From contig NZ_HE978531.1 of NCBI RefSeq assembly GCF_000311745.1, positions 62,001-126,000 of the forward strand: a stretch of DNA of 64,000 nt, written 5' to 3'. Below the pieces are notes generated by a model. It was given only the letters and a program-made list of their open reading frames with translations. It made no database searches and had not been told where the DNA came from. The stretch comes from Anaerococcus obesiensis ph10 (GTDB lineage Bacteria > Bacillota > Clostridia > Tissierellales > Peptoniphilaceae). Shown piece by piece: positions 5,788 to 59,509 of the stretch. How positions within the stretch are numbered: position 1 is the stretch's first letter; every line of letters starts with the position of its first letter. A program made the translations under genes and the position numbers.

Positions 5788-8419
5788 TTATTTATTTCTT
5801 GGATGTTCAATTGCTTCTTGAGCTGCTGCAAGTTTTGCAATTGGAACTCTAAATGGAGAACATGATACATAATCAAGTCCTACATTATATAAATATTTAA
5901 CAGTAGTAGGTTCTCCGCCGTGTTCTCCACAAATTCCTAAGTGAAGATTTGGATTTGCTTTTTTACCACGTTCAACAGCAGTTTCAACTAAGAAACCAAC
6001 ACCTTTTTGGTCTAGAACTTGGAATGGATCTTTTGCAAAGATATCTTTGTCTAAGTAAAGATCCAAGAATTTACCAGCGTCATCTCTTGAAAGACCAAAA
6101 GTCATTTGTGTTAAGTCGTTTGTACCAAATGAGAAGAAGTCAGTAATTTCTCCAATTTGATCAGCTGTTATAGCAGCTCTAGGAATTTCAATCATTGTTC
6201 CTAATAAGTAGTCAATTTTCTTTCCTTTTTCTTCAAATACTTTTTCAATTTCTTCTCTTACTTGATTTTTTACATAAGCAAGTTCTTTAACATCAGATGA
6301 AAGTGGAATCATTATTTCTGGAACAACATTAATTCCATCTTCATGACAATGCATTGCAGCTTGAATTATAGCACGAGCTTGCATTTTTGAAATTTCGGGA
6401 TATCTTACGCCAAGTCTTAGTCCTCTAAATCCAAGCATTGGGTTTACTTCTTCAAGATCTAAGATTCTCTTTTTAACTTCAGATATTTCCATATTTAAAT
6501 CTTCAGCAAGAGTTCTAATTTCTTCTTGTCCTCTTGGTAAAAATTCGTGAAGAGGTGGATCAAGAAGTCTTACAGTAACAGGTCTTTCGCCCATTAGAGA
6601 ATAAATTTGATAGAAATCATCTTCTTGCATTGGAAGAATTTTATCTAAAGCTTCTTTTCTTGTTTCGAAATTGTGAGCTAAAATCATTTTTCTAACTTGG
6701 AAAATTCTATCAGCCTTAAAGAACATGTGTTCAGTTCTACATAAACCAATTCCTTCAGCACCAAATTCTAAAGCTTGTTTAGCATCGTGAGGTGTATCTG
6801 CATTAGTTCTTACTTTCATATCACGATATTTGTCAACCCAGCTCATGAATTCTCCAAATGTACCTTCAAGTTTTGGATTTTCAGTTTCTAAAGCTCCAAC
6901 GTAAATATTTCCAGTAGAACCATCTATTGAAAGTACATCTTGGTCTGAATATTTTTTGCCATCAATTCTTACGAATCTTTCATCTTCATTTACATATATT
7001 TCATGAGCACCAGATACACAACATTTTCCCATTCCTCTAGCAACTACAGCAGCGTGGCTTGTCATTCCGCCTCTTGCTGTAAGAATTCCAACTGCTGAAA
7101 CCATTCCTTCAAGATCTTCTGGAGAAGTTTCTTCACGAACTAAGATTACATTTATACCTTTTGCAGCTCTTTTTTTAGCTTCTTTTGCAGTAAATGCAAT
7201 GTAACCTACAGCAGCTCCTGGACTTGCTGCAAGACCTTTAGCAACAGGTTTATTTTCTTTTATAGATTTTTGAGAAAGTGTAGGGTGGAGTAGACCATCA
7301 AGATCTTTAGGATCAATTCTTAAAACTGCTTCTTTTTCATTAAGAAGTCCTTCATGAACCATATCAACTGCAACTTTTACTGCAGCATGAGCAGTTCTTT
7401 TACCGTTTCTTGTTTGAAGTAAGTATAATTGTCCTTCTTGGATTGTAAATTCCATATCTTGCATATCTTTGTAATGTTGTTCAAGTTTTTCTGCAGTATC
7501 ATGGAATTGATCAAAAACTTCTGGTAATGAATCCTTTAATGTTGCAATTTCTTTTGGTGTTCTAACTCCAGCTACAACGTCTTCGCCTTGAGCGTTCATT
7601 AAATATTCACCAAATAATTTATTCTCACCAGTTGCAGGGTTTCTTGAGAAAGCTACACCTGTTCCAGAAGTTTCTCCCATATTTCCAAATACCATTGATT
7701 GAACATTTACAGCAGTTCCCATAGAATCATCAATATCATTTAATCTTCTATATAAAATTGCACGTTCATTATTCCAAGATGCAAATACAGCAGTAATAGC
7801 TTTGTCTAATTGTTCTCTTGGCTCTTGAGGGAAATCCTCTCCTTCAATATCTTTATAAACTTTTTTGTATTTTTCTACAACATCTTTTAAGTCGTTAGCA
7901 TCAAGTTCAGTATCTTCTGTTACGCCTTTTTCAACTTTTTTTTGCACTAAGAACCTTTTCAAAATTATTTTTATTGATTCCCATTGCTACATCAGCAAAC
8001 ATTTGAATAAATCTTCTGTAAGAATCGTAAGCGAATCTTTCGTTGTTTGTTTTTTTGCTAAGACCTATAACAGCATCATCATTTAAACCAAGATTTAAAA
8101 TTGTATCCATCATACCTGGCATAGAAATTGGAGCACCACTTCTTACAGATACAAGGAGTGGATCTTCTGTTGAACCAAAAGTTTTTCCATTATGTTCTTC
8201 TAAATCTTTGATGTGATTTGTAATTTCTTTTTTAAGATCTTCCCAGATTTTTTGATCTTCTTTGTAAAATCTTGCACATGCTTCAGTTGTAACCGTAAAA
8301 CCGTATGGGACATTGATTCCCATATTTGTCATTTCTGCTAGATTTGCGCCTTTACCACCGAGCAAAGAGCGCATGTCCTTGTCGCCTTCGTTAAAATTGT
8401 AAACATATTTTTCAGTCAT
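5788..8419 (-). CDS. ppdK: Pyruvate,phosphate dikinase, frameshifted at an A8 run
   Basis: The enzyme interconverts pyruvate, ATP and Pi with PEP, AMP and PPi. Two open frames carry it: 7931-8419 (162 residues, ATP-grasp N-terminus starting MTEKYVYNFNEGDKDMRSLL) and 5788-7962 (rest of the nucleotide domain, the phosphohistidine domain with GGMTSHAAVVARG, and the PEP-binding barrel ending near the catalytic Cys in LGICGEHGG). They join at eight A's (T's at 7936-7943 on the plus strand). Reading seven A's gives ...EKVLSAKKVEKGVTEDTE... and a protein of about 876 residues, the usual length. Either the run is miscalled, slippage occurs, or the gene is broken. It starts inside the end of the DUF299 regulator gene. 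Confidence 0.9.
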
Positions 8420-9680: not shown

Positions 9681-12308
9681 ATGCAAACAAAATACGAACC
9701 ACAAAAATTTGAAAAAGAAATTTATAAAAAATGGGAAGAAGGTGGATATTTTAAGGCAAGAGTTAATGAAAATAAAAAACCATTTACTATTGTTATGCCA
9801 CCACCAAATATTACAGGAAAATTACACTTGGGCCATGCCCTAAACAATACAATTCAAGATATTATTATTAGATATAAAAGAATGCAAGGTTATGAAGCTT
9901 GTTGGATTCCAGGAACAGATCACGCATCTATTTCGACTGAGGCAAAAGTTGTAGAAAAAATAAAAAACGAAGGAAAATCAAAAGATGAACTTGGTCGTGA
10001 TAAATTTTTGGAAGAATGTTGGGATTGGACAGAAGAATACGGTGGAACAATCAAAAGACAATTAAGAACTGTAGGAGTTTCTTGCGATTGGGATCGTGAT
10101 TCTTTTACTATGGATAAAAATCTTACAAGAGCTGTAAGAAAAGTTTTCAAAAAAATGTATGATGAGGGATTAATTTATAGGGGAAATAGAATTGTAAATT
10201 GGGATCCTGAAGCAAAAACTGCTCTTTCTGATGCAGAAGTTTATCACAAAGACCAAGAAGGACATTTGTGGTATATAAAATATTTCTTTGAAGATAGTAA
10301 TGATTTTATAACAATTGCTACAACAAGGCCTGAAACAATGCTTGGAGATTTGGCTGTTGCTGTAAATCCAGAAGACGAAAGGTTTAAAGATAAAATTGGG
10401 AAGAATTTAATTTTGCCACTTGTAGGCAGAAAAATTCCTTTGATTGAAGATTCTTATGTTGATATGGAATTTGGTACAGGTTGTGTAAAAATCACTCCAT
10501 CTCATGACCCTAACGATTTTGAAGTTGGAAAAAGACATAAGCTTGGTCAATGCGTAGTTATTGATGAAGGTGCAAAAATTAAAGAAGGGTATGGAAAATA
10601 TTCTGGTCTTGATAGGTATGATGCTAGAAAACTAATTATTGAAGATTTGGAAAAAGAAAATCTTTTGGTAAAAACTGAAACAATTGAGCATGCAGTAGGA
10701 TATAGTGAAAGAACAAATGTTGTAATTGAACCATTAATTTCAAAACAATGGTTTGTTAAAATGGAAGATTTGGCAAAGGATGCAATCGAAGTTTATAAAA
10801 ATGGAGATTTAAATTTAATCCCAGATTCTTTGGGAAAAACCTACATGAATTGGCTAGAAAATATTAGAGATTGGTGTATTTCTAGACAATTATGGTGGGG
10901 TCACAGACTTCCAGTTTTCTATACAGAAGATGGAGAAATTATTGTTTCGGAAGATGATCCAGATGAAAATGGATATTTGGATGGGAAAAAAGTCACTCAA
11001 GAAGAAGATACTCTAGATACTTGGTTTTCATCAGCTCTTTGGCCTTTTGCAACTTTAGGTTGGCCAGAAGAAACTGAAGATTATAAATATTTCTTCCCAA
11101 CAGATATTCTTGTAACAGGTTATGATATTATATTTTTCTGGGTTATAAGAATGGTATTTTCTTCACTTTACAATACAAATAAAACTCCTTTTGACCACGT
11201 ACTTTTCACAGGACTAATTAGAGATCCACAAGGAAGAAAGATGAGTAAGTCTCTTGGAAATGGAGTTGATCCAATTGATGTTGTAAATAAATACGGAGCA
11301 GATGCTTTAAGATTTACAATTATTACAGGAAATTCTCCTGGAAATGATATGCGTTACGATGAAAAAAGAATTGTAGCAAGCAGAAATTTTGCCAATAAAT
11401 TGTGGAATGCTACAAGATTTGTATTGATGAACGTTGATGAAAATGATGATATCGAATTTAAAAATTTAGATTTAAGTCTTGAAGATAAGTGGATTTTAAA
11501 AAGATTAAACAATGTTGTTGAAGAAGTTTCTAAAAATCTTGATAAATATGAAATTGGTCTTGCTGCAAGCAGAATTGAAGATTTTATTTGGGAAGAATTT
11601 TGCGATTGGTATATTGAATTTGCCAAGGAAAGATTAAATTCTGATGATGAAAATAAAAAAGCTACAGTTAAAAAAGTTTTGCTTTATGTTTTAAAAGATA
11701 TGATTTCACTTCTTCATCCATTTATGCCATTTATTACTGAAGAAATTTATAAGCAATTACCAAATAAAAAAGATATGCTTATAGTTGAATCTTGGCCACA
11801 AGTTAGGGATGATTTTAATTTTGATAGCGAGGCAAGGGTTGTTGATGGAGCAATTGAAGCTATAAAAGCTATAAGAAATCAAAGACAAACTTTAAATCTT
11901 GGATCAAAAACAAGACAAGATTTGATAATTTACTCATCTGATGAAAATACAAGAAATTTCCTAGAAATTTTGAAGGGACAATTTGTAAATCTTTCAAAAT
12001 CTGGAGAGATTTCAATTATAAGCGAAGATAAAGAAGTTGAAGATGCGGTTAGTTTGATTTTTAATGATTTTAAAATTTATATTCCTTTAGAAAATTTAAT
12101 TGATTATGATAAGGAAAGAAAAAGATTAAAAGATGAAATCAAAAAATTAGAATCCGAAATTAAAAGAGCTGAGGGCAAACTCAACAATCAAGGCTTTGTT
12201 TCAAAAGCGCCAGAAGCAGTTGTAAATGAAGAACGTGAAAAATTAGAAAAATATAAAGACTTACTTGAAAAAACTCAAGAATCTTACAAGGAAATAGAAG
12301 ATAAATAA
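9681..12308 (+). CDS. valS: Valyl-tRNA synthetase
   Basis: An 875-residue class I synthetase that charges tRNA-Val. The HIGH region is PPNITGKLHLGH (41-52) and the KMSKS loop is at 520-524. Between them lies the CP1 editing domain (TTRPETMLGDLAVAVNP..., GTGCVKITPSHDPNDFEVG). The C-terminal coiled coil of about 70 residues (RKRLKDEIKKLESEIKRAEGKLNNQGFVSKAP) is the valine-specific tRNA arm. The ATG at 9681 follows AAGGAGAAATT, and length is normal. Expression is under the T-box leader. The stop overlaps the ATG of the next gene as TAATG, so a methyltransferase and a cold-shock gene probably share the transcript. Confidence 0.97.
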   Translation: MQTKYEPQKFEKEIYKKWEEGGYFKARVNENKKPFTIVMPPPNITGKLHLGHALNNTIQDIIIRYKRMQGYEACWIPGTDHASISTEAKVVEKIKNEGKSKDELGRDKFLEECWDWTEEYGGTIKRQLRTVGVSCDWDRDSFTMDKNLTRAVRKVFKKMYDEGLIYRGNRIVNWDPEAKTALSDAEVYHKDQEGHLWYIKYFFEDSNDFITIATTRPETMLGDLAVAVNPEDERFKDKIGKNLILPLVGRKIPLIEDSYVDMEFGTGCVKITPSHDPNDFEVGKRHKLGQCVVIDEGAKIKEGYGKYSGLDRYDARKLIIEDLEKENLLVKTETIEHAVGYSERTNVVIEPLISKQWFVKMEDLAKDAIEVYKNGDLNLIPDSLGKTYMNWLENIRDWCISRQLWWGHRLPVFYTEDGEIIVSEDDPDENGYLDGKKVTQEEDTLDTWFSSALWPFATLGWPEETEDYKYFFPTDILVTGYDIIFFWVIRMVFSSLYNTNKTPFDHVLFTGLIRDPQGRKMSKSLGNGVDPIDVVNKYGADALRFTIITGNSPGNDMRYDEKRIVASRNFANKLWNATRFVLMNVDENDDIEFKNLDLSLEDKWILKRLNNVVEEVSKNLDKYEIGLAASRIEDFIWEEFCDWYIEFAKERLNSDDENKKATVKKVLLYVLKDMISLLHPFMPFITEEIYKQLPNKKDMLIVESWPQVRDDFNFDSEARVVDGAIEAIKAIRNQRQTLNLGSKTRQDLIIYSSDENTRNFLEILKGQFVNLSKSGEISIISEDKEVEDAVSLIFNDFKIYIPLENLIDYDKERKRLKDEIKKLESEIKRAEGKLNNQGFVSKAPEAVVNEEREKLEKYKDLLEKTQESYKEIEDK

Positions 12309-13035
12309 TGTATAAAGATTTTGCTTATATTTATGATAAATTATCTTTTGACCTTGATTATGAAAAATATGCAGAAAATATAAAATCTTTGGTTATTAAA
12401 AATAATATAAAAAAGAAAAAATGTTAGAGTTAGCATGCGGAACGGGCATGCTAACCAATCATTTTTTTGATTTTTTTGAAAAAATTGACGCCTTAGACTT
12501 ATCAAAATCTATGCTTGAAGTTTTTTCGAAAAAATTTCAAGAAGAAAATGTATCTTTGTATAATTATAATATGGTAAATTTTCAAAATGAAAATTCCTAT
12601 GATTTAATTGTAATCTTGCTTGATTCTATAAATTATATTTTGGATGAAAAAGATTTGAAAAAATTAATAGAAAATTCTTATAAAAATTTGAAAAAAGGTG
12701 GACTTTTGATTTTTGATATAAATTCAGAATATAAAATGGAAGAAGTTTTTGGCTCAAAATCTTATATTTATGAGTATGAAGATATTTTTTATACTTGGGA
12801 TAATATTAAAGATGGCGATATAATTGATATGGAATTAAACTTTTTTGTTGAAAATGAGGACGGAACTTACCAAAGAATTATTGAAAATCAAGTTGAAAGA
12901 ATTTATTCTGTAGATTTTATGAAAAAAGTTTTAAAAGAAAATAATTTTTCTGAAATTGAAATTTTTGATGAAGATACAATGCAAGAAATCAAAGATGATA
13001 CTTTGAGAATTTTGTTTAAGGCTAAAAAGGAGTGA
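12308..13035 (+). CDS. SAM-dependent methyltransferase, frameshifted at an A6 run
   Basis: A class I methyltransferase of about 242 residues that methylates an unknown substrate. The N-terminal frame starts at ATG 12308 (MYKDFAYIYDKLSFDLDYEKY...NNIKKKK) and stops at once after the A run at 12416-12421. The second frame (12421-13035) begins with MLELACGTGMLTNHF, which is SAM-binding motif I, and continues with DALDLSKSML and LLIFDINS. One more A joins them into a single ordinary protein. The start at 12421 would lack the N-terminal helices. The zero frame reads ATA AAA AAG AAA AAA at the break, the same 16-base context as in pcp. It is translationally coupled to valS. Confidence 0.82.
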
Positions 13036-13037
13036 AT

Positions 13038-14306: not shown

Positions 14307-15614
14307 ATGATTGAAGAAGAGCTTATTAGATTAAGAAGACATTTTCACAAATATGCCGAACCTGCTTGGATGGAATTTTTGACTACTGCAAAAATTATTG
14401 AAGAGTTGAAAAATTATAATCTCGACCTTTATTATGGAAAAGAAATTTATTTCAATAAAAGGATGGGACTTCCAGAAAAATCAATTCTAGAGTCTTATAA
14501 AAATTCCATTTCTATTTCTGATATAGAAAAAAAGGAAGAAATTTTGGATTCTTACACAGGTCTTATCGCTGTTTTGGATACGAAAAAAATTGGACCAAAT
14601 ATTGGATTTAGATTTGATATAGATGCAAATGAACTTTGCGAAAGTAATTCACTTGGACATTTGCCAAATATTTTAAATTTTTCATCAAAAAATTCTTTTG
14701 CCATGCACGCTTGCGGTCACGACGCTCACATGTCAATTGGGATTGAGCTTGCAAAAATTCTTGCATCAAATATAAAAAAATTAAAAGGAAAAATTATTTT
14801 TATTTTTCAACCAGCAGAAGAAGGAGTAAGAGGAGCTTATTCTCTAATGAATAATCCGATTATAGATAAACTTGATTATTTGGCGGGCATGCATATTGGA
14901 ATGGACGTAAAAAGTGGAGAAATTGGTGTGGGAAGTCATGGATTTCTTGCTACAAAAAAAATTGATATTATTTTTAAAGGCAAGGCATCTCATGCTGGAG
15001 CAAGTCCCGAAAAAGGTCATAATGCACTTTTGGCTGCATCAAGTGCAGTTTTAAATTTTAATAGTCTTGCTCAACATTCTATGGGAGAGGCAAGAATTAA
15101 TGTTGGGAAATTAAATGCAGGAAGTGGAAGAAATATAATAGCTAATAAGGCGAAAATCGAAATGGAGATTAGGGGAGAAAATGATCATATAATTTCTTAT
15201 TTATACGATGGAGTAAATAGAATCGTTGAAGGCTCAGCTATCTCTTATGATTGTTCTTATGAAATAGAAATAAAGGGACAAGCTCCATCACTTATTTCTT
15301 ATGATGAAGAATTTATAAAAAATCTTAGAAATTATTATAAAGAAAAATCCTACAAACTTGTAGATGCAAATTTGAAAGGCTCTGAAGATATTGCTTATTT
15401 ATTAAATGAAGTGAGAAAAGCTGGTGGCAAGACAGTTCATTTTATTTTAGGCTCAAATTTAAAAGACAGCCATCACAGCGAAGAATTTGATATTAACGAA
15501 AAAGATATGCTAAGAGGAGTCAACCTAATGGTAGATTTTGTAAAATATATAGAAAAAATTGATAAGATTGATTATGAAAGGGTAGAAAATGAAAATATTG
15601 CTTACAGGATTTGA
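14307..15614 (+). CDS. M20-family amidohydrolase (AbgA/aminoacylase-like)
   Basis: A 435-residue metallo-amidohydrolase of the M20D type, which includes p-aminobenzoyl-glutamate hydrolase and N-acyl-amino-acid deacylases. It starts [18 protein letters not shown], has [10 protein letters not shown], the metal motif [10 protein letters not shown] and the catalytic/metal segment [11 protein letters not shown]. It then has the dimerisation domain ([21 protein letters not shown]) and the final metal His in SHHSEEFD. The substrate is not certain. Its end overlaps the pcp start by 26 bases. The last 13 residues look non-conserved: one more A in the run at 15553-15558 would end the protein at ...KYIEKN, before pcp, but this is only a suspicion. 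Confidence 0.85.
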
Positions 15615-16229
15615 TCCTTTTGATAAAGAAAAAATAAATCCATCAATTGAACTTGTTAAAAAAGTTGAAGAAAAAATTGAAGGCGCCCAAATTTTTAAAA
15701 TAGAAATTCCAACAGTTTTCAAAAAATCAGGAGAAATTTTGGAAGAAAATATTAAAAAAATAAGGCCAGATGTAATTTTGTGTATTGGGCAAGCTGGAGG
15801 AAGAAGCTCTATTTCTGTTGAAAGAATTGCAATTAATATTGATGATGCAAGAATTTCTGATAATGATGGTAAAAAACCGATTGATGAAAAAATAAGAAGA
15901 GACGGAGAAAATGCTTATTTTTCAAATCTTCCAATTAAAAAAATTGTAGAAGAGATAAAAAAGAAAAAATTCCAGCAGAAATTTCAAACTCAGCAGGAAC
16001 TTTTGTATGTAATCATTTGATGTATGAGGCCTTGTATTTGGCAAAAAAATATAAAAATATAAGAGCAGGATTTATCCATATTCCATATTTACCAGAACAA
16101 GTTTTAAATAAAGCGAACACACCTTCAATGGATTTGGAAAATTCTTTAAAAGCAATAAATATTGCCATAAAAACTATAATAAACCATGACGGAGAAGATT
16201 TGAAAATTTCTGATGGAAAAATTTCATAA
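15589..16229 (+). CDS. pcp: Pyroglutamyl-peptidase I, frameshifted at an A6 run
   Basis: A cysteine peptidase (C15) that removes N-terminal pyroglutamate. The first frame (15589-16020) gives [19 protein letters not shown]..., the catalytic Glu region ([19 protein letters not shown]) and [11 protein letters not shown], then runs into junk after KKKK. The second frame supplies [22 protein letters not shown], with the catalytic Cys in FVCNH, and [10 protein letters not shown] with the His, ending at 16229. The break is the A6 run at 15964-15969. Adding one A restores a 213-residue protein of normal length. As read, the first frame lacks the catalytic Cys and His. AAAGGG precedes the ATG. Confidence 0.88.
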
Positions 16230-19695: not shown

Positions 19696-19759
19696 GCAAA
19701 TTAATTTATTTCATTTTTGAAAAATAAAAAAATGCCGATAAAATTAAATATTTTTACAA

Positions 19760-19799
19760 AAAAAGAATTAGCCTTTTGCCTAAGAGCTAATTCTTTTTT
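19760..19799 (+). terminator. Terminator after the macro-domain gene
   Basis: AAAGAATTAGC (19762-19772) pairs with GCTAATTCTTT (19786-19796), then T's. It also lies downstream of the converging deoR-type gene (ends 19848). Confidence 0.85.
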
Positions 19800-19847
19800 C
19801 TTTATAAACATTCAATTCAATCATAAAATCGTTATTTAAAACTTGTC

Positions 19848-20603
19848 TTATACAAGTATAACTTTGATTCCTAAACTTTCGGCATATTCTAAAATACTTC
19901 TTGGCATAGAGCTATCTGTTATCAGAATATCTATATTTTCTATTGTTCCTATTTTAAAATTTGCGGTTTTTGAAAATTTGCTTGAATCGCATACCAAAAT
20001 ATTTTTGCTTGTAGATTCATTTATCATATATTGGTTTATTTCAACTTCATCTATAACTGACGTAGTTAATTCTCCGCTTTCAGATACACCAGAAATTCCT
20101 AGGATTGAAATATCTGATGCAACAGTTTTGAGATTATTTAAAGCAAAAGTACCGGTAAGTGCGTTTTTTGGATAAGAAACCCTGCCGCCAGTTAAAATCA
20201 CATTGACTAAGGGGTCTATATCAATATAAGATGCTTTTGCGTTATTTGTTATAACATTTATCCTTTTATTTTTGAGATATTTTAAAACTCCTAGGGCTGT
20301 CGATGATGAATTTATAAAAATATCATCATTTTCTTTTATAAAATCGGCACATTTTTTTGCGATTTTTTCTTTGTTATTTTCAATAGTTAGATTTTTACAG
20401 CTGTTGGATTCGTTATATTCTGCTCCTCCATAAAATCTTTCTATTTTTCCTATTGATTGAAGATAATCCAAATCTCTTCTTATTGTTATTTCAGAAACTT
20501 TAAATATTTCGACAAGCTCATTTGTTTTTGCTTGTTTATTATCCTTTATAAATTTTAATATATTATTTCTTCTGTTATTTACGATTGTTTTTTTAATTTT
20601 CAT
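19848..20603 (-). CDS. DeoR-family transcriptional regulator of the ascorbate operon
   Basis: A 251-residue regulator. The N-terminal winged helix shows RRNNILKFIKDNKQAKTNELVEIFKVSEITIRRDLDYL..GKIERFYGGA, the DeoR signature. The C-terminal sugar-phosphate sensor domain resembles the isomerase fold (NSSSTALGVLKYL, VITNN, LTGGRV, LGISGVS, VCDSSKFSK). It is divergent from ulaG, the classic place for a UlaR-like repressor that responds to ascorbate 6-phosphate. The target is inferred from position. AGAGAGGTAGTT precedes the ATG. Confidence 0.87.
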   Translation of the reverse strand: MKIKKTIVNNRRNNILKFIKDNKQAKTNELVEIFKVSEITIRRDLDYLQSIGKIERFYGGAEYNESNSCKNLTIENNKEKIAKKCADFIKENDDIFINSSSTALGVLKYLKNKRINVITNNAKASYIDIDPLVNVILTGGRVSYPKNALTGTFALNNLKTVASDISILGISGVSESGELTTSVIDEVEINQYMINESTSKNILVCDSSKFSKTANFKIGTIENIDILITDSSMPRSILEYAESLGIKVILV

Positions 20604-20759
20604 AACTACCTCTCTTTAAATGATAACCTATACTTACAAAAAAATCAAAAGAATCCATTAATTTGATTAGAATTTTAAAAAAAACCTTTCTAAATTATAA
20701 AAAAATCAAATAACGAAAGAAACAATCGTAAAATATATGCAAAAATGTGTTTTTTATGC

Positions 20760-20788
20760 TTGACCGTTCAAAATAATTATTATATTAT
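20760..20788 (+). promoter_or_regulatory. Predicted promoter/operator of the ula operon
   Basis: TTGACC (20760-20765) and TATTAT (20783-20788) are 17 bases apart. The -35 lies in the near-palindrome TTGACCGTTCAA. The whole 226-base divergent region (20604-20829) holds no gene, and the repressor sites should lie here; I see no long perfect operator repeat. Confidence 0.5.
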
Positions 20789-20829
20789 AATATCAAAGAA
20801 AAAAAGAAAATGAAAAATTGGAGGTATTA

Positions 20830-21894
20830 ATGAGCAAAGTTGACGAAATCACAAGAGAAAATTGGATTTTAAATGCTTTTCCAGAATGGGGAACGTGGCT
20901 AAATGAAGAAATTGATGAAGAAGTTGTAGAAAAAGGCACATTTGCTATGTGGTGGATAGGATGTACTGGTATTTGGTTTAAAACTGAAAATAATACTAAC
21001 ATAGCTGTGGATCTTTGGTTTGGTAATGGAAAGAGAACAAAAAAAGTTAAAGAGATGCAACCATATCATCAAATGAGAAATATGACTGGTGGAAAAGCTC
21101 TTCAACCAAATTTAAGAGCAAATCCAATTGTCTTTGATCCTTTTGCAGTTAAAAATGTTGATGCAGTTTTATCTACTCATTATCATAATGATCATATTGA
21201 TCCTTTCTTTGCTGCAGCAGTTTTGAAAAATTGTCCAGAAGATGTTCCTTTTATAGGTCCTGAAGAATCTGTAAAAAAATGGTTGTCTTATGGTGTTCCA
21301 GAAGAAAGATGCAAAATGGTTAAACCAGGAGATGAAATTAAAATTAAAGATACTACTATAGTTGTTTTGGACAGTTTTGATAGAACTTGTTTGGTTACTA
21401 CTGAAGTAGGAGAAGATATTGAAGGAGTTTGTCCTACAAATATGGATCAAAAGGCTGTAAATTATTTAATAAAAATGCCAGCTGGTAGCGTATATCATAC
21501 AGGTGATTCTCATTTTTCAATTGGTTTTGCAGAAGTTGGAAAAAAATATGACGTAGATATTGCGTTTGGTTCTTATGGAGATAATCCTGTTGGAAATCAA
21601 GACAAGATGACTTCAATTGATATTTTAAGAATGGCTGAATCAGTAGGATGCGAAGTTGTAATTCCAATTCACTATGATGTTTGGACTAACTTCAAAGCTG
21701 ATCCTAAAGAAATAAAATATTTATGGCAATATAGAAAAGATAGGTCAAAATATAAATTCCATCCATATATTTGGGATGTAGGTGGCAAATACGTATGGCC
21801 TAAGATGAAAGATGAATTAGAATTTAGATATAGACCTGGATTTGAAGATGCATTTGATAATGAAAGGAATGTTCCTTTTAAATCTATTTTGTAA
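20830..21894 (+). CDS. ulaG: L-ascorbate-6-phosphate lactonase
   Basis: A 354-residue metallo-beta-lactamase-fold enzyme that opens L-ascorbate 6-phosphate to 3-keto-L-gulonate 6-phosphate. The metal motif is STHYHNDHID (HxHxDH). VYHTGDSHFSIG and PIHYDVWTNF supply further ligands and the UlaG-typical C-terminus. The frame opens at a TTG at 20818, but ATG 20830 has TTGGAGG seven bases before it and gives the family's exact usual length. It is the first gene of the ascorbate operon. A strong non-terminating hairpin separates it from the IIA gene. Confidence 0.95.
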   Translation: MSKVDEITRENWILNAFPEWGTWLNEEIDEEVVEKGTFAMWWIGCTGIWFKTENNTNIAVDLWFGNGKRTKKVKEMQPYHQMRNMTGGKALQPNLRANPIVFDPFAVKNVDAVLSTHYHNDHIDPFFAAAVLKNCPEDVPFIGPEESVKKWLSYGVPEERCKMVKPGDEIKIKDTTIVVLDSFDRTCLVTTEVGEDIEGVCPTNMDQKAVNYLIKMPAGSVYHTGDSHFSIGFAEVGKKYDVDIAFGSYGDNPVGNQDKMTSIDILRMAESVGCEVVIPIHYDVWTNFKADPKEIKYLWQYRKDRSKYKFHPYIWDVGGKYVWPKMKDELEFRYRPGFEDAFDNERNVPFKSIL

Positions 21895-21902
21895 AATAAT
21901 AA

Positions 21903-21926
21903 GTGCTGTCAAATTTTTGGCAGCGC
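21903..21926 (+). other. Intercistronic hairpin between ulaG and the IIA gene
   Basis: GTGCTGTCAAA and TTTGGCAGCGC form an 11-bp stem with two G-T pairs and a TT loop. There is no T run after it, so it is probably a processing or stability element that lets ulaG be expressed differently from the PTS genes. Confidence 0.5.
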
Positions 21927-21948
21927 CTACATATAAGTGAGGATAATA

Positions 21949-22404
21949 ATGATTAGTGAAATTATTGAAAAGGGTTTATTTGATTTTTATGATAAAATCG
22001 ATACCTGGCAAGATGCTATTATAAAATCTTGTAATAAGCTAGTGGAAAAGGATATTGTAGATGATTCGTATGCTAAACAAGTTATAGAAACAGTTGAAAA
22101 ATATGGTCCATACATAGTTTTAATTCCTGGAGTTGCCATGCCACATTGTCAAGAATGTGCTGATGGAGTGAAAGATACTGCTGTAGCTTTTATGAAAGTA
22201 GAAAATCCAGTTGTATTTGATGAAAATGATAGGGATAAGGATGCGAAAATATTTTTTACAATAGCAAGTGAAAATAATGAAAAACATTTGGAAAATATAG
22301 CACAACTTTCTGATATTTTGTGTGATGAAGAAATAGTAGAAGCTTTTAATCAAGCTAAGAACGTAGATGATTTAATAAAAATTTCAAAAAAATATAATAT
22401 TTAG
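21949..22404 (+). CDS. ulaC: PTS ascorbate-type IIA component
   Basis: A 151-residue cytoplasmic PTS IIA protein of the mannitol/fructose-like fold. It takes phosphate from HPr at the active His in IPGVAMPHCQE and passes it to IIB. The start is ATG 21949, with TGAGGATAATA before it; an in-frame GTG at 21937 lies in the ribosome-binding region. It lies next to the IIC and IIB genes as separate polypeptides, the usual arrangement for ascorbate systems. Confidence 0.9.
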   Translation: MISEIIEKGLFDFYDKIDTWQDAIIKSCNKLVEKDIVDDSYAKQVIETVEKYGPYIVLIPGVAMPHCQECADGVKDTAVAFMKVENPVVFDENDRDKDAKIFFTIASENNEKHLENIAQLSDILCDEEIVEAFNQAKNVDDLIKISKKYNI

Positions 22405-22413
22405 GAGAAAAAT

Positions 22414-23877
22414 ATGGATATAATTTTAAGTATTTTAAATGGATTTGTAAAAAATATTCTCACAAAACCAGCGTTTTTTATAGGATTTTTGGTTTTAATT
22501 GGTTATTTGTTAGATGGAAAAAAATGGTATGAAGCTTTAGCTGGTTTTATTAAGGCTACTGTAGGATATATGATTTTGATGGTAGGTTCTGGTGGACTTG
22601 TTTCAACATTTAGACCGATTCTTACAGGACTAAAGGACAGATTTAATATTTCTGCAACTGTAATAGATCCTTATTTTGGACAAAACGCAGTTACTGAAGG
22701 TATGGAACATTTAGGTAAATCATTTTCTCAAGTAATGATTTTGTTATTGGTTGCCTTTATTGTAAATATTATTTTGGTAAGATTAAAAAATATTACAAAA
22801 ATGAGAGCTGTTTTTACAACAGGACACGTACAAATGCAACAAGCTGCTACAGCTTTTTGGTTAATAGTTTTTTGCTTTCCAAAGTTAGGACAAACTCCTA
22901 TACTTGTTATAATGGCAATTCTTTTAGGACTTTATTGGGCTGTTGGTAGTAACTTAACAGTTGAAGATACACAACGCTTAACTGATGGGGCTGGTTTTTG
23001 TATAGCTCACCAACAAATGTTTGGTATTAGACTTGCTTGCTGGTTAAGTGATAAATTATTTGCAAATAAAAAAGATCAAAGTAAAGATATTGATGATATA
23101 GAACTTCCTGGATTTTTGTCAATTTTCAATGAAAATATGGTAGCAACTGCTATACTAATGACTTTATTCTTTGGAATAATCCAAGGTGTTTTGGGAAAAG
23201 AATATTTAGTAGCTCAAGAAGCTTTAACAATGGAAGATAATTTCTTCTTCTATATACTTCAATCATCATTTAGTTTTGCTGTAAATTTAGCTATTTTACA
23301 ATTAGGAGTTAGAACTTTCGTTGGAGAGTTGACTGCATCATTTGATGGAATTCAAAATAAACTTTTACCAGGAGCTCTTCCAGGAATAGACTGTGCTGCA
23401 GTTTTCGGATTTGGTGCAGCAAATGCTGTTACAATTGGATTTATGTTTGGTGCTTTAGGTCAATTTTTAGCAATAGCAATCCTATTTTTACTAAAATCTC
23501 CTACATTAATAATTGCAGGATTTGTACCTTTATTTTTTGATAATGCCGTAATTGGGGTATATGCTAATAATAGAGGAGGATATAAAGCAGCTTTCTTGAT
23601 GCCATTTATATCTGGACTAATTCAAGTATTTGGTTCTGCTTTTATAGCAACATATACAGGACTTGCTCAATATGGTGGATACTTAGGAATGTTCGACTGG
23701 GCAACAGTATGGCCAGCATTTACAGTATTGATTAATAATATCCAATATGTTGGTGTAGCAATAGTAGCAATTTTCTTGATAGTTATACCTCAAATTCAAT
23801 ACAAAAAGAACAAAAAAGGTTATTTCATGATAACTGAGGATTACGAAAAGTACAAAGAAACAATTGAAAACAAATAG
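22414..23877 (+). CDS. ulaA: PTS L-ascorbate-specific IIC permease
   Basis: A 487-residue integral membrane protein of the UlaA/SgaT family, which moves L-ascorbate across the membrane during phosphorylation. About ten or more hydrophobic helices are visible. Family-typical stretches are GGLVSTFRPILTGL, VTEGMEHLG, HVQMQQAATAFWL and LPGALPGIDCAAVFGFG. The charged C-terminal tail (NKKGYFMITEDYEKYKETIENK) is cytoplasmic. AGGAGAAAAAT precedes the ATG. It lies between the IIA and IIB genes. Confidence 0.94.
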   Translation: MDIILSILNGFVKNILTKPAFFIGFLVLIGYLLDGKKWYEALAGFIKATVGYMILMVGSGGLVSTFRPILTGLKDRFNISATVIDPYFGQNAVTEGMEHLGKSFSQVMILLLVAFIVNIILVRLKNITKMRAVFTTGHVQMQQAATAFWLIVFCFPKLGQTPILVIMAILLGLYWAVGSNLTVEDTQRLTDGAGFCIAHQQMFGIRLACWLSDKLFANKKDQSKDIDDIELPGFLSIFNENMVATAILMTLFFGIIQGVLGKEYLVAQEALTMEDNFFFYILQSSFSFAVNLAILQLGVRTFVGELTASFDGIQNKLLPGALPGIDCAAVFGFGAANAVTIGFMFGALGQFLAIAILFLLKSPTLIIAGFVPLFFDNAVIGVYANNRGGYKAAFLMPFISGLIQVFGSAFIATYTGLAQYGGYLGMFDWATVWPAFTVLINNIQYVGVAIVAIFLIVIPQIQYKKNKKGYFMITEDYEKYKETIENK

Positions 23878-23886
23878 GAGGAAAAA

Positions 23887-24183
23887 ATGAAAGTAATAGT
23901 AGCGTGTGCAAATGGAGCTGGAACTTCTTTAATGATGATGAATAAAATCAAACAAGCATTTAAAGAGTTGGATTATAAAGGAAAACTTGATATATCTCAT
24001 TGCTCCTTGTCAGAAGGAAAATCTACAGGTAGAAATGCTGATGTTATATTCTGTGCTATTAATTTCACCAAAGATTTTGATGCGTTAAAATCAAAAGGTG
24101 TTGAAATAATTGGAATGAAAAATATTCTTTCTAAAGATGAAGCTATTGAAAAGATTAAAGAACATAATCTTTTAGAAAAATAA
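23887..24183 (+). CDS. ulaB: PTS ascorbate-type IIB component
   Basis: A 98-residue IIB protein. Its phosphorylated residue is Cys7 in VACANGAGTSLMM. The C-terminal half (DVIFCAINF, GVEIIGMKNIL) is as in UlaB/SgaB. It takes phosphate from IIA and gives it to ascorbate carried by IIC. AGGAGGAAAA precedes the ATG, and the gene is nine bases after ulaA. Confidence 0.92.
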   Translation: MKVIVACANGAGTSLMMMNKIKQAFKELDYKGKLDISHCSLSEGKSTGRNADVIFCAINFTKDFDALKSKGVEIIGMKNILSKDEAIEKIKEHNLLEK

Positions 24184-24193
24184 GTTGGTTAAA

Positions 24194-24886
24194 ATGCTAG
24201 AAGATATAAAAGAAAGGGTCTACAAGGCAAATTTATTATTGCCAAAATATGATCTAGTTAAATTTACTTGGGGAAATGTTTCAGAAATCACTCCAGATAG
24301 AAAATATGTTGTAATAAAACCATCAGGTGTTGATTATGATAGCATGAAAGCAAGTGATATGATTGTTGTTGATTTAGATGGAAATATCGTAGAAGGTAAT
24401 TTAAAACCTTCTAGCGATACTCCAACACATCTTGAACTTTATAAAAAGTATAAAGAAATTGGTGGTATAACTCATACTCATTCAAGATGGGCAACAATTA
24501 TGTCACAAGCAAAGCTTGATATAAAAGCTATGGGAACAACTCATGCAGATTATTTTTACGGAAGTATTCCTGTAACAAGAGATATGAAAAAAGAAGAAAT
24601 CAAAAATGACTACGAAAAAAATACTGGTCTTGTAATAATAGAATGTTTTGAAGAAAAAAATATTTCTCCAAAAGATGTGCCAGCTGTGTTGGTAGCAAAT
24701 CATGGCCCATTTGTGTTTGGAAAAGATGCAAATGATTCAGTATTTCATTCAGTAGTCTTAGAAGAAGTTGCTTTTATGAATTGGCACTTAGTTTCTCTTG
24801 GAAAAAATGAATCTATGAGTGATAATCTTCTTGATAAACATTACCTAAGAAAACATGGAAAAGATGCTTATTATGGACAAAATTAA
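24194..24886 (+). CDS. ulaF: L-ribulose-5-phosphate 4-epimerase
   Basis: A 230-residue class II aldolase/epimerase that turns L-ribulose 5-phosphate into D-xylulose 5-phosphate, the exit step of ascorbate breakdown. Visible motifs are LVKFTWGNVSEI, PSGVDYDSM, PSSDTPTHLELY, the zinc histidines THTHSRWATI, and ANHGPFVFGK. A TTG at 24185 opens the frame, but ATG 24194 aligns with the usual UlaF N-terminus. Its ribosome binding site is weak, so coupling to ulaB upstream is likely. Its 3' end overlaps the next gene. Confidence 0.93.
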   Translation: MLEDIKERVYKANLLLPKYDLVKFTWGNVSEITPDRKYVVIKPSGVDYDSMKASDMIVVDLDGNIVEGNLKPSSDTPTHLELYKKYKEIGGITHTHSRWATIMSQAKLDIKAMGTTHADYFYGSIPVTRDMKKEEIKNDYEKNTGLVIIECFEEKNISPKDVPAVLVANHGPFVFGKDANDSVFHSVVLEEVAFMNWHLVSLGKNESMSDNLLDKHYLRKHGKDAYYGQN

Positions 24887-25702
24887 TCTAGGAATATACG
24901 AAAAGGCTCTGCCAAATAGATTAGATATAAATGAAAAATTAAAACTTGCAAAAAAAATAGGATTTAATCAGTTAGAAATTAGCATAGATGAGTCAGATGA
25001 AAAATTAAATAGGCTTACAAATGGTTTTTCCAAAAAACTTCTAAAGGCACAAATTGATAATGACATGAGAGTAAGGACAATGTGTTTGTCAGGACATAGA
25101 AAGTATCCTTTTGGTTCAAATGACGAACAAATCAGAAAAAAAAGCCTTGACATTATGCAAAAAGCTTTAGAATTTGCTGATATTAATTCTATAAAAATAA
25201 TTCAACTTGCAGGTTATGATGTTTATTACGAAAAATCAAATGAAAAAACAAAAAATATTTTATAGAAAATTTATTTAAAGCGGTGGACTTTGCATCAAAA
25301 TATGGAGTTATACTTGCTTTTGAAACCATGGAAACAGAATTTATGGATACTGTAGAAAAAGCTATGGAATATGTTAATCTTGTTGATAGTCCATATCTTG
25401 GAATATATCCAGATATTGGCAACTTAAAAAACGCATCTGTAAAATATAACAAGGATGTAGTTGAAGACATAAAAAAAGGCAAGGGACATATTTTTGCAGC
25501 TCACCTTAAAGAAACAAATCCTGGAATTTATAGGGATATGCAATTTGGATCTGGTGGTCATACAGAATATGAAAGATGTATAAAAGAATTAAAAAATCAA
25601 AAAGTTCAAATCTATACTGGCGAATTTTGGGATCATGGAGAAGAAAATTATAAGGAAATAATAAAAAATTCTTACGAATTTTTAAGTGAAAAACTAAAAT
25701 AA
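24873..25702 (+). CDS. ulaE: L-ribulose-5-phosphate 3-epimerase, frameshifted at an A6 run
   Basis: This enzyme converts L-xylulose 5-phosphate to L-ribulose 5-phosphate. The first frame carries NLGIYEKALP, CLSGHRKYPFGS and IQLAGYDVYYE and stops at 25265. The second frame carries YFIENLFKAVDFASKYGVIL, the metal-binding YPDIGNL, AAHLKETNPGIYRDMQFGSG and GEFWDH. The join is at the A6 run 25250-25255; one more A gives a normal 276-residue protein. ATG 24873 lies inside the ulaF end; an in-frame ATG at 24855 is six codons earlier. The second frame's GTG at 25283 is not a real start, because conserved sequence continues upstream of it. Confidence 0.9.
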
Positions 25703-25712
25703 GGAGAAAGTT

Positions 25713-26348: not shown

Positions 26349-26374
26349 TTGTTAGAAGAAAGTTAGGAGTTAAA

Positions 26375-27022: not shown

Positions 27023-27029
27023 TTAAAAA

Positions 27030-27072
27030 ATGGCTTTGCACAATGTTTAAAATATTTTGCAAAGCCTTTTTC
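27030..27072 (+). terminator. Terminator of the ascorbate operon
   Basis: GGCTTTGCA at 27032-27040 pairs with TGCAAAGCC at 27058-27066, followed by TTTTTC. It separates the ula operon from tkt, although read-through could link them. Confidence 0.82.
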
Positions 27073-27118
27073 TTATTCAAAAATAAAATTTACAAATAAA
27101 AATATATAAGGAGAATCA

Positions 27119-29107: not shown

Positions 29108-29131
29108 AAACATAAAGACATAAATTATAAG

Positions 29132-29170
29132 AAACTCATATTGATAAAATATTATTGATATGAGTTTTTT
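29132..29170 (+). terminator. Terminator after tkt
   Basis: AACTCATAT and ATATGAGTT form a 9-bp stem over an AT-rich loop of about 16 bases, then TTTTTT. Confidence 0.75.
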
Positions 29171-29235
29171 ATATTCTTCTTATTTTAATTTTCTAATGGG
29201 TAAAATTATAATGAAAATAAAAAAAGGAAGTAAAA

Positions 29236-32947: not shown

Positions 32948-33012
32948 AATTCACCTGTATTATAATATATCAAAAAATAATTTATATACAAAATTTTTTG
33001 TAATATATAAAA

Positions 33013-47836: not shown

Positions 47837-48921
47837 ATGAGAGTAATAGTATCTGGCGGTGGAACTGGCGGACATATTTATCCAGCCATAGCCATGTGCC
47901 AAAAATTAGAAGAAGAAATAGATGATTTGGAAATTCTTTATGTGGGATTAAATGATGGCCCAGAAAAAAGAATTGTAAATAAATATGGTTACAAATTTAG
48001 AGCTATTGAGGCTATGGGTCTACCAAGAAAAATTTCCAAAAGACTTTTTAAATCTCTTTTGACAAATTTAAGAGGTTTCAAAGAAGCAAAAAAAATTATT
48101 AAAGAATTCAAACCAGATCTTGTTATAGGAACAGGTGGTTATGTTTGTGCACCAATTCTCTATCAAGCAAGCAAGAAAAATATAAAAACTTTGATACATG
48201 AATCAAATTCTTTTCCAGGAGTTACTACAAGATTTTTGTCAAACAAAGTCGATCTTGTTTGTATATCATTTGAAGAAGCAAAAAAACATTTGAAAAATAA
48301 AAAAATGTTTATGTAACAGGAAATCCAGTAAGAACTAATTTTAATACATCATACAGTCAAGAAGATTTGGAAAAGTTAGGAATAAAAAAAGATAGACCAG
48401 TAGTTTTTTCTTTTGGAGGTTCTAATGGTTCAAAATATCTAAATGATGCAGTAAAACAAATGAGTGAATTTTTGGACGGGAAATTTTATTTGCTCCATCA
48501 AACTGGATTAAAAAATTATGATGAATTTATAAAAAATACAAAAGAAAATGAGTTTATAAAGGCATTTTCTTATATAGATAATATAGATTTATTTTATGCG
48601 GTAAGTGATTTGGTAATAGCATCATCTGGGGCTATGAGTTTAAGCGAAATATCAAATCTAAAAAAAGCATCAATTTTAATACCAAAAGCCTACACAACAG
48701 AAAACCATCAAGAATATAATGCAAGATCATATTTAAAAAAAGGTGCTTGCTCAATGATTTTAGAAAAAGAATTAAATGGGAAGATTCTTTATGAAAATAT
48801 ACTTGATATTGTAGAAGATAAAGAAAAAATAAAGGAAATGGGCGAGAAGGCAAGCTTATTACAAAATCCTAATGCAAGTGATGAAATTTATGATTTGATA
48901 AAAAAAGTTATGGGTATGTGA
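47837..48921 (+). CDS. murG: UDP-GlcNAc--MurNAc-pentapeptide transferase MurG, frameshifted at an A7 run
   Basis: This membrane-associated glycosyltransferase adds GlcNAc to lipid I, giving lipid II. The first frame (47837-48316) has VSGGGTGGHIYPAIAM and LVIGTGGYVCAPILYQA. The second frame holds NVYVTGNPVRTNF, VVFSFGGSNGSKYLN and VIASSGAMSLSEIS. They join at seven A's (48299-48305); eight A's give one 361-residue protein of normal length. MurG is essential, so a true null is unlikely, and a miscalled run or slippage is implied. The first frame alone would lack the UDP-GlcNAc-binding domain. ftsW, usually between murD and murG, is absent. Confidence 0.93.
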
Positions 48922-48922: not shown

Positions 48923-49713
48923 ATGAGCAAAAAAAATAGACAAAAAAATAAAGGCAGAAAAAAATTAAAAAGAAAACAAAAATTATTTACTCCTTTTTTT
49001 GTGATTTTTTTAATAATAGTAATCGCAGCTATATTAATTGTTAATTTGTTTAGGCATGATTACTATAAAATTTCTCAAGTATACATAAAAGGAAATAAAA
49101 TTTTATCAAATGATCAAATTTTATCAAAATTAAATAATCCAATGGGAACAAATATAATTTTATACGATGAGAAAGAAAGCATAGAAAATCTAAAAAAAGA
49201 AAAAATAATAAAAAGCGCCAAAATAGAAAAAGAACTTCCAGATAAAATTATAGTAAGAGTAAAAGAAGAATATCCTTATATGCTTGCAAGATACAAAAAA
49301 GATAACTATGTTATTGCAAATACAGGAAAAGTATTGGATAAAACAGCAAATGAAGAAAATAATAATTTACTAAAAATCAAAGGAATAAAAAACAAACCAG
49401 AAATTGGAAAAAATTTTACCGATAAAAAAAATCTAATAAAATTTATCGATTCTATTCAAAAGCTAAAATATGCTAAAGACATAAAAGAAATAGACTTGGA
49501 AAACTATAATGAAATTGGTATAATAATAAATGATATTCAGATTAATTTCGGAGATTTAAAAAATTATAATTATAAACTTAAACTACTTGATTCAGTTTTA
49601 AAGGATATAGAAAATAAAAAATAAAAGCTTATTCAATTAGCCTAAATAAGGGTAAGAATCCAGTAGTTGAAGTTGAAGAAAAAAGTCTTGACGAAAAAGA
49701 TGAAAATAATTAA
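48923..49713 (+). CDS. ftsQ: Cell division protein FtsQ/DivIB, frameshifted at an A6 run near the end
   Basis: A bitopic division protein. A Lys-rich cytoplasmic tail and a membrane helix (about 24-44) are followed by the POTRA domain ([24 protein letters not shown]...[28 protein letters not shown]). As read it stops at 49624 after DIENKK. One more A in the run at 49616-49621 extends it with [30 protein letters not shown] and a stop at 49713, giving 263 residues. The added part contains the NKGKNPVV segment that ends many DivIB proteins, so I include it. It lies one base after murG. Confidence 0.85.
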
Positions 49714-50832: not shown

Positions 50833-51390
50833 ATGAAGTGTCCATATTGTGACTCAAATGATACAAAAGTTATAGACTCTAGAGCAACAGAAGATAATCA
50901 TGCTATTAGAAGAAGAAGGCTATGTCAAGCTTGTAATAAAAGATTTTCAACTTATGAAAGATATGAAGACCAAACTTTAATGGTTGTAAAAAAAGATAAT
51001 ACTAGAGAATCTTTTGATAGGTCAAAACTTATAAGTGGAATTGTAAAATCTTGCGAAAAAAGACCTGTAAGCATGGAAGACATTGAAAAAATAGCAGATG
51101 ATATAGAAGTTTCTATAAATCATATTGGTAAAAAGGAAGTATCATCCACTACCATAGGAAAATTTGTCATGGAGCATCTAAAACAATTAGATCCTGTAGC
51201 TTATGTGAGATTTGCATCAGTATATAGGGAATTTAAAGATGTTGAGAGTTTCTATAGAGAGATTAAAAATTTAAAAGAAAAAATTAGAAAATTTAAGGGG
51301 CTATTGCAAGATGAAAATGACAAAAAACAAATTCATTTTGCAACAGTCCTTTTTTTGAAAGATTGGATAAAATGGACTTATTTGAATTAA
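50833..51390 (+). CDS. nrdR: Transcriptional repressor NrdR
   Basis: A zinc-ribbon plus ATP-cone regulator of ribonucleotide reductase genes. The zinc ribbon is CPYCDSNDTKVIDSR...RRRLCQACNKRFSTYER, and the ATP-cone follows (VVKKDNTRESFDRSKLISGIVKSCEKRPVS). The 185-residue reading is about 30 longer than usual; the extra tail (IRKFKGLLQDENDKKQIHFATVL...) does not look conserved and overlaps rarA by 19 bases. One more A in the run at 51278-51283 would end the protein at LKEKN, 151 residues, a typical length. It lies one base after ftsZ. Confidence 0.9.
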   Translation: MKCPYCDSNDTKVIDSRATEDNHAIRRRRLCQACNKRFSTYERYEDQTLMVVKKDNTRESFDRSKLISGIVKSCEKRPVSMEDIEKIADDIEVSINHIGKKEVSSTTIGKFVMEHLKQLDPVAYVRFASVYREFKDVESFYREIKNLKEKIRKFKGLLQDENDKKQIHFATVLFLKDWIKWTYLN

Positions 51391-56490: not shown

Positions 56491-56493
56491 TAA

Positions 56494-57275: not shown

Positions 57276-57329
57276 AAAATTACCTCTAAATTATTATATC
57301 ATATGTTATAATCATATTGGGAGAATCTT

Positions 57330-59509
57330 ATGAGAAAAAATTTGTTTTTTTACTTATTTCTTTAATATCTGGTATAGGAATTTTCACTTTTTTTGAGGCT
57401 TATGATTTTTTGTTTGTGATTATAGGCTTATTTGTATGTGGAATTTTTCTTTTTGTAAAAAAATCTTATCTTTCTTTTTTGTTTTTTGGATTTTCTATGG
57501 GAATTTTTTTGGCATCTTTTAATTTTCATTCTTATAAGCTTGAAAAATATGATAATTTAGATTTAAATTTAACTGTTGTTGAAAAAATTAAAAATGATAA
57601 TTCCTATACTTATTATGTAAAAGCAAAAAATATGGATAAAAAAATAGATGAAAAATCTACTTTTATATCTGATAAAAATTTTGAAATAGGAGATAGGCTA
57701 AGGGCAAATTGCAATATTTCCATGCCTTCTACAAACACCAATCCATATTTATTTTCTTATAGGAAATATTTATTATCTAAAAAAATAAAAAGCAAGCTTG
57801 ATATAAAATCTTTTGAAAAATTGGGAGAATCTTCTTCTATTTTTTTAAAAATTAAGAAAAATTTTAACCAATATATTAATAAGGTGTTTGAAAAAAATTT
57901 GTCTAAGGATTCTTTTTCTTTTGTAAAAGCTGTTATTCTTTCGGATAAATTTGAATATAGACAAGGTCTTTCGAAATTAGGCTTAGCTCATATTTTGGCG
58001 GTTTCTGGTCTTCACATTGATTTATTGATGGCTTTGTTAATATTTTTATTGATAAAAGCAAATATTTCATACAAGTACGCTTATCCGATTTCTTTGGGAA
58101 TTTCTTTATTTTATGCCTATTTAATTTCATTTCCATTTTCGGTTTTGAGAGTTTTATTTATATACAGCTTATCTCATTTGGAATTTTTACTAAAAAAAGG
58201 CAAGGATACAGGAAAAAATCTCATTGTAGCCATGTTATTAATTTTATTGGCAAATCCTTTTGCAATTTTAAATTCTGGCTTTATTCTTTCATTTTTGGCA
58301 GGGTTTGCAATTTATGAGATTTATCCAAAACTTGTAAGGGGGAAAAATTTCTCTTATTTAAAAAAATACATAATTTTTATTCTTTGCTTGCAAATAACTT
58401 TGGCTTTTCATGTTATTTACTATTATGGATATTTTAATTTGCTTAATTTTTTTGCGAATTTTTTGGTTGTTCCAATTTTTTCTATAAGTATGTACATAAT
58501 TTTTGGGATAATTATTTTGTATCCGATATTTGGCGGATTGTTAGCTGGTTTTTTCTTTATTTTGGATTTTTTGATAAAATCTATCATGGATATAGCAAAT
58601 TTTTTGAGTACTTTTACAATTTTTGGCTTAGACTTTCCAAAAGAGTCAATCTTAATTAGTTTTTATTATTTGATACTTTTGTATATATTTGTGAAATTTA
58701 AAAATAAAAAACTAAGGGCAAAAAAATTTTTGATGATTTCTATGATTATAGTGATTTTTTCTATTGTAAAAGATAAAAATAAGCCTATTTCCTATCAAAT
58801 GCTTGATATTGGACAGGGAGATTTTTTTATTTTGGAAGATAAGGGCGATTTTTATTTGTTTGATTGTGGGGAAGTTTCTTACAAAAATTATTCATCAACT
58901 GAAAAAATAGCTATAGCTTTTTTAAAGGCAAAAGGAGTAAAAAAAATCAAGGCGGTTTTTATTTCTCATGAGGATAAGGATCATTCGGGCGCTTTGGAAA
59001 AATTGAAAAATGAATTTGAAATTGGTCCTGTAATTTCTAATATTTATAATAAAAATCTAGGGGAAAAATATAAATTTTTGGAAATGAAAGAGGGTAATAT
59101 TTACAAAGGAAAAAATTTTAGCGTTGAATGTTTAGAAAATTTTTCTGGAGACGAAAATTCTAATTCTATGCCACTTTTAATTAGGATAAATGATTTTAAA
59201 ATTTTGACTATGGGAGATTTGCCAATGGAGTATGAACAAAAAGTTGCAAGAGATATTGATATTTTAAAAGTTTCCCATCATGGCTCAAGATTTTCAACTT
59301 CAAAGGATTTTGTAAATAAAACAAGTCCACAAGTTGCTTTAATTTCAGCTGGAAGAAAAAATACTTATGGACACCCATCAAAAGAAGTCTTAGATAATTT
59401 AAAAAATGTTAAAATATACAATACTCAAAAAGATGGATATTGTAAGATAGAATTTTACAAGAATTCATTTAAGGTAAAAAAATATGTGAAAGGAGGATTT
59501 TTTAGATGA
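57330..59509 (+). CDS. comEC: DNA uptake protein ComEC/Rec2, start region frameshifted at an A6 run
   Basis: A protein of about 726 residues that forms the channel for transforming DNA. It has an N-terminal membrane part, an OB-like loop, the competence domain (LGLAHILAVSGLHIDLLMALLIF and following helices) and a C-terminal metallo-beta-lactamase domain (MLDIGQGDFFIL, FISHEDKDHSGALEKL, DILKVSHHGSRFST). As read, the long frame can begin only at TTG 57317, with no ribosome binding site. ATG 57330 has an ideal GGGAG site; one more A in the run 57335-57340 puts it in frame as MRKKFVFLLISLISG. The stop overlaps holA by four bases. Confidence 0.88.

Follow-up and report, generated by a model that had tools for sequence, protein, structure and literature searches.

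Frame breaks in the ph10 window

The window analysed here is a stretch of 64,000 nucleotides (positions 62001–126000 of contig 1) of the ph10 genome, which was assembled to 2.04 Mb in five contigs (RefSeq: Anaerococcus obesiensis ph10) and belongs to Anaerococcus vaginalis. Nine protein-coding genes in this window leave their expected frame at or close to short runs of A or T, and a tenth, nrdR, ends differently from its counterparts. We conclude with high confidence that these breaks are artefacts, caused by homopolymers whose length is wrong in the ph10 assembly. The closest of the relatives compared is A. vaginalis ATCC 51170, a member of the same species with 97% identity over 4.3 kb and 96–98% across the aligned part of the window; completeness is 92.3% in the ph10 assembly vs 97% in ATCC 51170. 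The genes concerned are the following:

5788–8419, minus strand: ppdK (pyruvate phosphate dikinase), in two frames, split at the T run 7936–7943.
12305–13035, plus strand: S-adenosylmethionine-dependent methyltransferase (Pfam Methyltransf_25/11), out of frame over its N-terminal 14%, with the break at 12409–12421.
15589–16229, plus strand: pcp (pyroglutamyl peptidase), split at 15957–15969, with Pfam Peptidase_C15 matched only over positions 1–127 of 204.
24855–25702, plus strand: sugar-phosphate epimerase of TIM-barrel type, ulaE-like, interrupted at the A run 25250–25255, with Pfam AP_endonuc_2 in two halves.
31549–32950, minus strand: the gene called S41-like in an earlier note on this DNA, with its N-terminal 14% in the wrong frame and the break at the A run 32740–32746.
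33013–34358, minus strand: sensor histidine kinase, with the shift starting at codon 388 (of 448), next to the T run 33187–33193.
47837–48921, plus strand: murG, interrupted at the A run 48299–48305, between the two glycosyltransferase domains.
48923–49713, plus strand: ftsQ/divIB (Pfam POTRA_1 and FtsQ_DivIB_C), with its final 11% in the wrong frame after a break at the A run 49616–49621.
57317–59509, plus strand: comEC (Pfam DUF4131, Competence and Lactamase_B in one open reading frame), in the wrong frame no further than codon six, with the difference located at 57345–57351.
50833–51390, plus strand: nrdR (Pfam Zn_ribbon_NrdR and ATP-cone), the tenth break, absent from the earlier note, with a one-base difference at 51283 in its last codons.

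Genes were compared one by one with ATCC 51170 wherever the window could be aligned, using open reading frames (ORFs) of at least 120 amino acids and counting uncompensated shifts. This frame-shift test marked 9 of 53 window genes, exactly the nine that the earlier note had picked out from the sequence alone. In ATCC 51170 each of them is one open frame, of 876 (ppdK), 242 (methyltransferase), 213 (pcp), 282 (ulaE-like), 465 (S41-like), 448 (histidine kinase), 361 (murG), 264 (ftsQ) and 726 amino acids (comEC). The nine runs named in that note are present where it placed them, six to eight bases long, and its count of directions also agrees with the comparison, as seven genes are shorter in ph10 and two are longer. 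Its assignment of every one-base difference to a named run was borne out in part: all nine differences fall within, beside or in the next A/T run of at least six bases, but four lie outside the named run. For the methyltransferase and pcp, whole-window alignment places the difference in a neighbouring run of six A; for comEC it lies in the T run 57345–57351, and for the histidine kinase it is a base beside the T run. Bases in or adjoining A/T runs of at least six make up 6.2% of the window, and finding all nine differences there is far beyond chance (binomial p = 1.4e-11, with positions treated as independent).

A second test looked for proteins divided between two frames, leaving out genes whose combined pieces fall short of 85% coverage of the reference as well as query ORFs containing masked letters. 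Eight of the 53 window genes are split by this measure. The ninth, comEC, does not split; it had been listed as broken and is indeed shifted, but only at codon six of 726, and the ph10 ORF still spans nearly the whole protein.

Sharing of the breaks among relatives

Syntenic stretches were compared in five relatives: A. vaginalis ATCC 51170, strain PH9, A. ihuae, A. jeddahensis and A. hydrogenalis DSM 7454. Eight of the nine genes could be followed in the last four, giving 32 gene-by-relative cases, of which 24 are in frame and eight are shifted (the S41-like gene in PH9, A. hydrogenalis and A. ihuae; ftsQ and comEC in PH9 and A. hydrogenalis; murG in A. hydrogenalis). Seven of these eight shifts lie 67–2128 bases from the ph10 break and only comEC in PH9 is shifted at the same place, so that 31 of the 32 cases have no shifted place in common with ph10. 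Out-of-frame runs are thus kept in none of the nine genes in ATCC 51170 and in one of the 32 cases in the four further relatives. When ATCC 51170 itself was used as the test genome, none of 53 genes was split with A. jeddahensis as the reference, and none of 53 with A. ihuae. With the exception of comEC in PH9, the ph10 breaks are private to one assembly; they are also genome-wide and independent of gene function, the pattern expected of errors.

The earlier note had offered widespread transcriptional slippage as the remarkable alternative, in which the printed bases are true and RNA polymerase, by inserting or skipping a base at A/T runs, restores the frame in part of the mRNA. Slippage on such runs has been measured in Escherichia coli and Buchnera, mostly as a one-base insertion (PMC5574713), and seven of the nine ph10 breaks are of the kind that an insertion would compensate. 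Purifying selection persists in the shifted genes, and the comEC shift recurs at the same place in PH9, as slippage would allow. If slippage decoded these genes, however, relatives should share the out-of-frame runs; only comEC in a single 454 assembly does, and slippage is therefore rejected as the explanation. The sequence kind is that of known transcriptional slippage (PMC1088944, PMC5574713), but the ph10 runs are shorter and the shift is unconserved except for comEC in PH9. Selection against A/T runs is reported to be evident at nine bases in a large share of bacteria, while shorter runs may slip in some (PMC1088944); at six to eight bases, the ph10 runs stay below the usual length of about nine for efficient slippage, a threshold that varies between organisms according to the same source. 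In three relatives, hardly any coding A/T run reaches nine bases, which looks like avoidance of slippage. Slippage would, moreover, have to sustain protein supply from about 9% of genes simultaneously, some of them essential. We accordingly regard it as very improbable. Smaller still is the chance that ph10 expresses about 9% of its genes, among them murG, topA and the presumed sole primary sigma factor gene, through slippage on A/T runs of six to eight bases, as a trait absent from ATCC 51170.

Genome-wide extent and essential genes

The split test was extended to five ph10 stretches totalling 344 kb, the window included. In this sample 22 of 255 ATCC 51170 genes are split in ph10, vs 6 of 265 ph10 ORFs that appear split in ATCC 51170 in the reverse test (p = 0.0015). 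The share in the window (8 of 53) is not clearly higher than in the remaining sample (14 of 202; p = 0.09). Genes split outside the window include topA (topoisomerase I), 5-formyltetrahydrofolate cyclo-ligase and a sigma factor with regions 1.2 to 4. Sigma-70 region 1.2 has a single match in the whole ph10 genome, inside this split gene, and the same gene is one frame in all five relatives; further sigma-70-like genes are present in ph10, none of them with a region-1.2 match in the whole-genome search. Judged by its domains, the split gene is the sole primary sigma factor gene of ph10. In bacteria generally, murG, ftsQ and the gene for the primary sigma factor count as essential, and a cell should be unable to do without topA or its sole primary sigma factor.

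The reverse test also bears on the converse possibility, that ATCC 51170 and the other relatives carry the errors and the ph10 window has the true frames. Its six apparent splits would speak for this, but four of them are mirror images of ph10 breaks, being the out-of-frame ends of genes broken in ph10, one reflects two nearby opposite differences, and one stands next to a masked stretch. In addition, Pfam domains are truncated or divided between ORFs in ph10 (murG, pcp, ppdK and the TIM-barrel gene), while the relatives keep one frame. With the frames whole in the relatives, this explanation was rejected, and we consider its probability negligible.

Run length, direction and selection

Run lengths were tabulated over 224 of the 344 kb, restricted to runs flanked on either side by three matching bases. 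Among coding A/T runs of ATCC 51170, the length is changed in ph10 in 2 of 1578 runs of five bases (0.13%), 7 of 689 of six (1.0%), 11 of 320 of seven (3.4%) and 6 of 58 of eight (10.3%). The frequency of change thus grows with run length, as expected of homopolymer errors, and it is biased in one direction, with 21 of the 26 changed coding runs shorter in ph10. Intergenic runs change more often (5.4–29% for lengths five to eight) and go both ways, with 16 shorter and 12 longer in ph10; the contrast in direction between coding and intergenic runs is not significant (p = 0.08).

The ratio of nonsynonymous to synonymous substitution rates (dN/dS) is 0.109 in 26 shifted genes vs 0.093 in 153 others. 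Among the 26 are a repeat-rich gene full of gaps and some genes that break right at their start, so 22 of 255 is the better figure for the extent of the breaks. By dN/dS, relaxed selection of the kind expected of pseudogenes was not seen, although a very recent loss would stay invisible to this measure.

These results allow a judgement on whether the insertions and deletions are real and recent, arising in a mutator, in a strain undergoing decay or at phase-variable loci in their off state. Replication slippage is expected at A/T runs, ph10 and ATCC 51170 do have intergenic runs of different length, and the comEC difference may be a real mutation. A mutator would be expected to have lost mismatch repair, but the MutS-family frames (882 and 785 amino acids) and MutL (607 amino acids) are open in ph10 and within one residue of their ATCC 51170 sizes. 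Phase-variable genes are described as being in the majority surface genes (PMC3711429), whereas murG, ftsQ, topA and the primary sigma factor gene are housekeeping genes. Gene decay was rejected, since selection is not clearly relaxed (dN/dS is scarcely raised in the shifted genes) and essential genes are affected; the cell would be without its sole primary sigma factor. Real and recent mutation is, on this evidence, unlikely to a high degree, if less so than slippage.

As an observation on the genus, coding A/T runs of at least nine bases number 0, 0 and 1 in 80-kb syntenic stretches of A. ihuae, A. jeddahensis and ATCC 51170, where synonymous-codon shuffles lead to an expectation of about 20, 19 and 21. 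Runs of six and seven A exceed expectation in the same stretches, giving an abrupt upper limit of eight for a genus whose G+C content is about 29%.

Comparison of assemblies and platforms

454 reads are prone to homopolymer errors, and Ion Torrent has the same weakness. Strain PH9 was sequenced on the 454 GS FLX Titanium and assembled with Newbler (PMC3558966), and A. ihuae was sequenced on Illumina (PMC9300522). In the frame-shift test, PH9 has 19 of 48 genes shifted, mostly shorter, vs 1 of 53 in A. ihuae; A. hydrogenalis (9 of 45) and A. jeddahensis (3 of 52) fall in between. The split test with ATCC 51170 as the reference gives 14 of 49 for PH9, 7 of 47 for A. hydrogenalis and none of 54 for either A. 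ihuae or A. jeddahensis; between the latter two, it finds 1 of 61 in A. jeddahensis and 2 of 59 in A. ihuae. Break counts track the assembly, not the tree. The 454 assembly of PH9 resembles that of ph10 in having one-base shifts in the same syntenic stretch, at a higher rate, and differs from it in that mostly other genes are affected and many of the shifts are at short runs. Although deposited as A. vaginalis, PH9 has only about 86% identity to ph10 over 4.3 kb and is classed as another Anaerococcus species.

Long-read-only assemblies are likewise described as prone to homopolymer insertions and deletions (Polypolish, PMC8812927), and correction in the Kastor study lowered the share of pseudogenes from 23.3% to 5.6% (PMC12007338). 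Such assemblies are like ph10 in their one-base homopolymer changes, in the many conserved genes that are split and in their lower completeness; long reads are one possibility among several for the ph10 platform. In the account of the GeneTack authors, singleton frame shifts validated by BLAST are expected to be sequencing errors, not insertion or deletion mutations (PMC3711429).

Individual genes

Several genes can be followed beyond the five relatives or carry details of their own. The ppdK pieces match Pfam PPDK_N, PEP-utilizers and PEP-utilizers_C, and the gene is a single frame in all 13 other genomes searched. For murG, Pfam Glyco_transf_28 and Glyco_tran_28_C are on separate ORFs in ph10, and the gene is a single frame in 12 of the 13 other genomes, the exception being A. 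hydrogenalis. In A. hydrogenalis DSM 7454, murG (C10:52475-53550) falls into four matches with three shifts relative to ATCC 51170, and this assembly probably contains similar errors.

The best frame covers the whole protein (coverage 1.00) in all five relatives for the methyltransferase, pcp and the histidine kinase, the last of which retains HAMP, HisKA and a truncated HATPase_c in ph10. For ftsQ the best-frame coverage is 0.96–1.00 in the five relatives, and a finer count shows shifts at other places in PH9 and A. hydrogenalis. The nrdR product has 185 amino acids in ph10 vs 150–151 in all five relatives, an extension of 34–35 codons.

Two of the names used earlier proved too specific, although both genes are interrupted as described. 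The 'S41-like' gene is shifted, but its intact copy matches no Pfam family at E ≤ 0.001; it is in frame in ATCC 51170 and A. jeddahensis, and shifted elsewhere along the gene in PH9, A. hydrogenalis and A. ihuae. The gene called ulaE is split, but Pfam supports only a xylose-isomerase-like TIM barrel; it is intact in ATCC 51170 and has no match in the syntenic stretches of the other four relatives. A block of about 9.4 kb (window positions 19700–29180) with sugar-phosphate genes, ula-like by the naming of the earlier note, is present in both A. vaginalis genomes and missing at the same place in PH9, A. jeddahensis, A. ihuae and A. hydrogenalis.

Origin and meaning of the breaks

We attribute the broken frames to homopolymer-length errors because the breaks are nearly unshared, occur at A/T runs, become commoner with run length, are genome-wide, and lie in essential, normally constrained genes. 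The earlier note had considered homopolymer miscalls the simplest reading, and the comparisons support it. Uncertain run length in the reads would produce a one-base miscall at an A/T run, which would then appear as a break of the frame. We infer strongly that such errors account for nearly all of the breaks and that slippage is unnecessary.

Several observations weigh on the other side. The error itself and its cause, ambiguous run length in the reads at the stage of base-calling or assembly, are what we infer, and the same-species comparison consists of one genome, ATCC 51170. The ppdK site carries substitutions relative to that genome too, and hence shows no plain run-length change; some shifts outside the window are not at long runs; and A. 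ihuae and A. jeddahensis have some shifts themselves. The more frequent change of intergenic runs is also explained by ordinary divergence. Finally, comEC in PH9 is shifted at the same place as in ph10 (codon six, window positions 57330–57351), with a run make-up that differs between the assemblies, which may reflect either a real shared difference near the gene start or an error in both assemblies. The shared comEC place leaves the odds of an artefact unchanged, because the break is at codon six.

The breaks have no biological significance, and their value is as a warning. Extrapolating from the sample, annotation of ph10 would give roughly one gene in eleven or twelve the appearance of a pseudogene, and conclusions on gene content or recoding drawn from this assembly would be wrong. 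For such cases a cheap test is available, as one genome of the same species together with the state of the primary sigma factor gene nearly settles the matter. The ph10 bacterium itself very probably carries intact genes.

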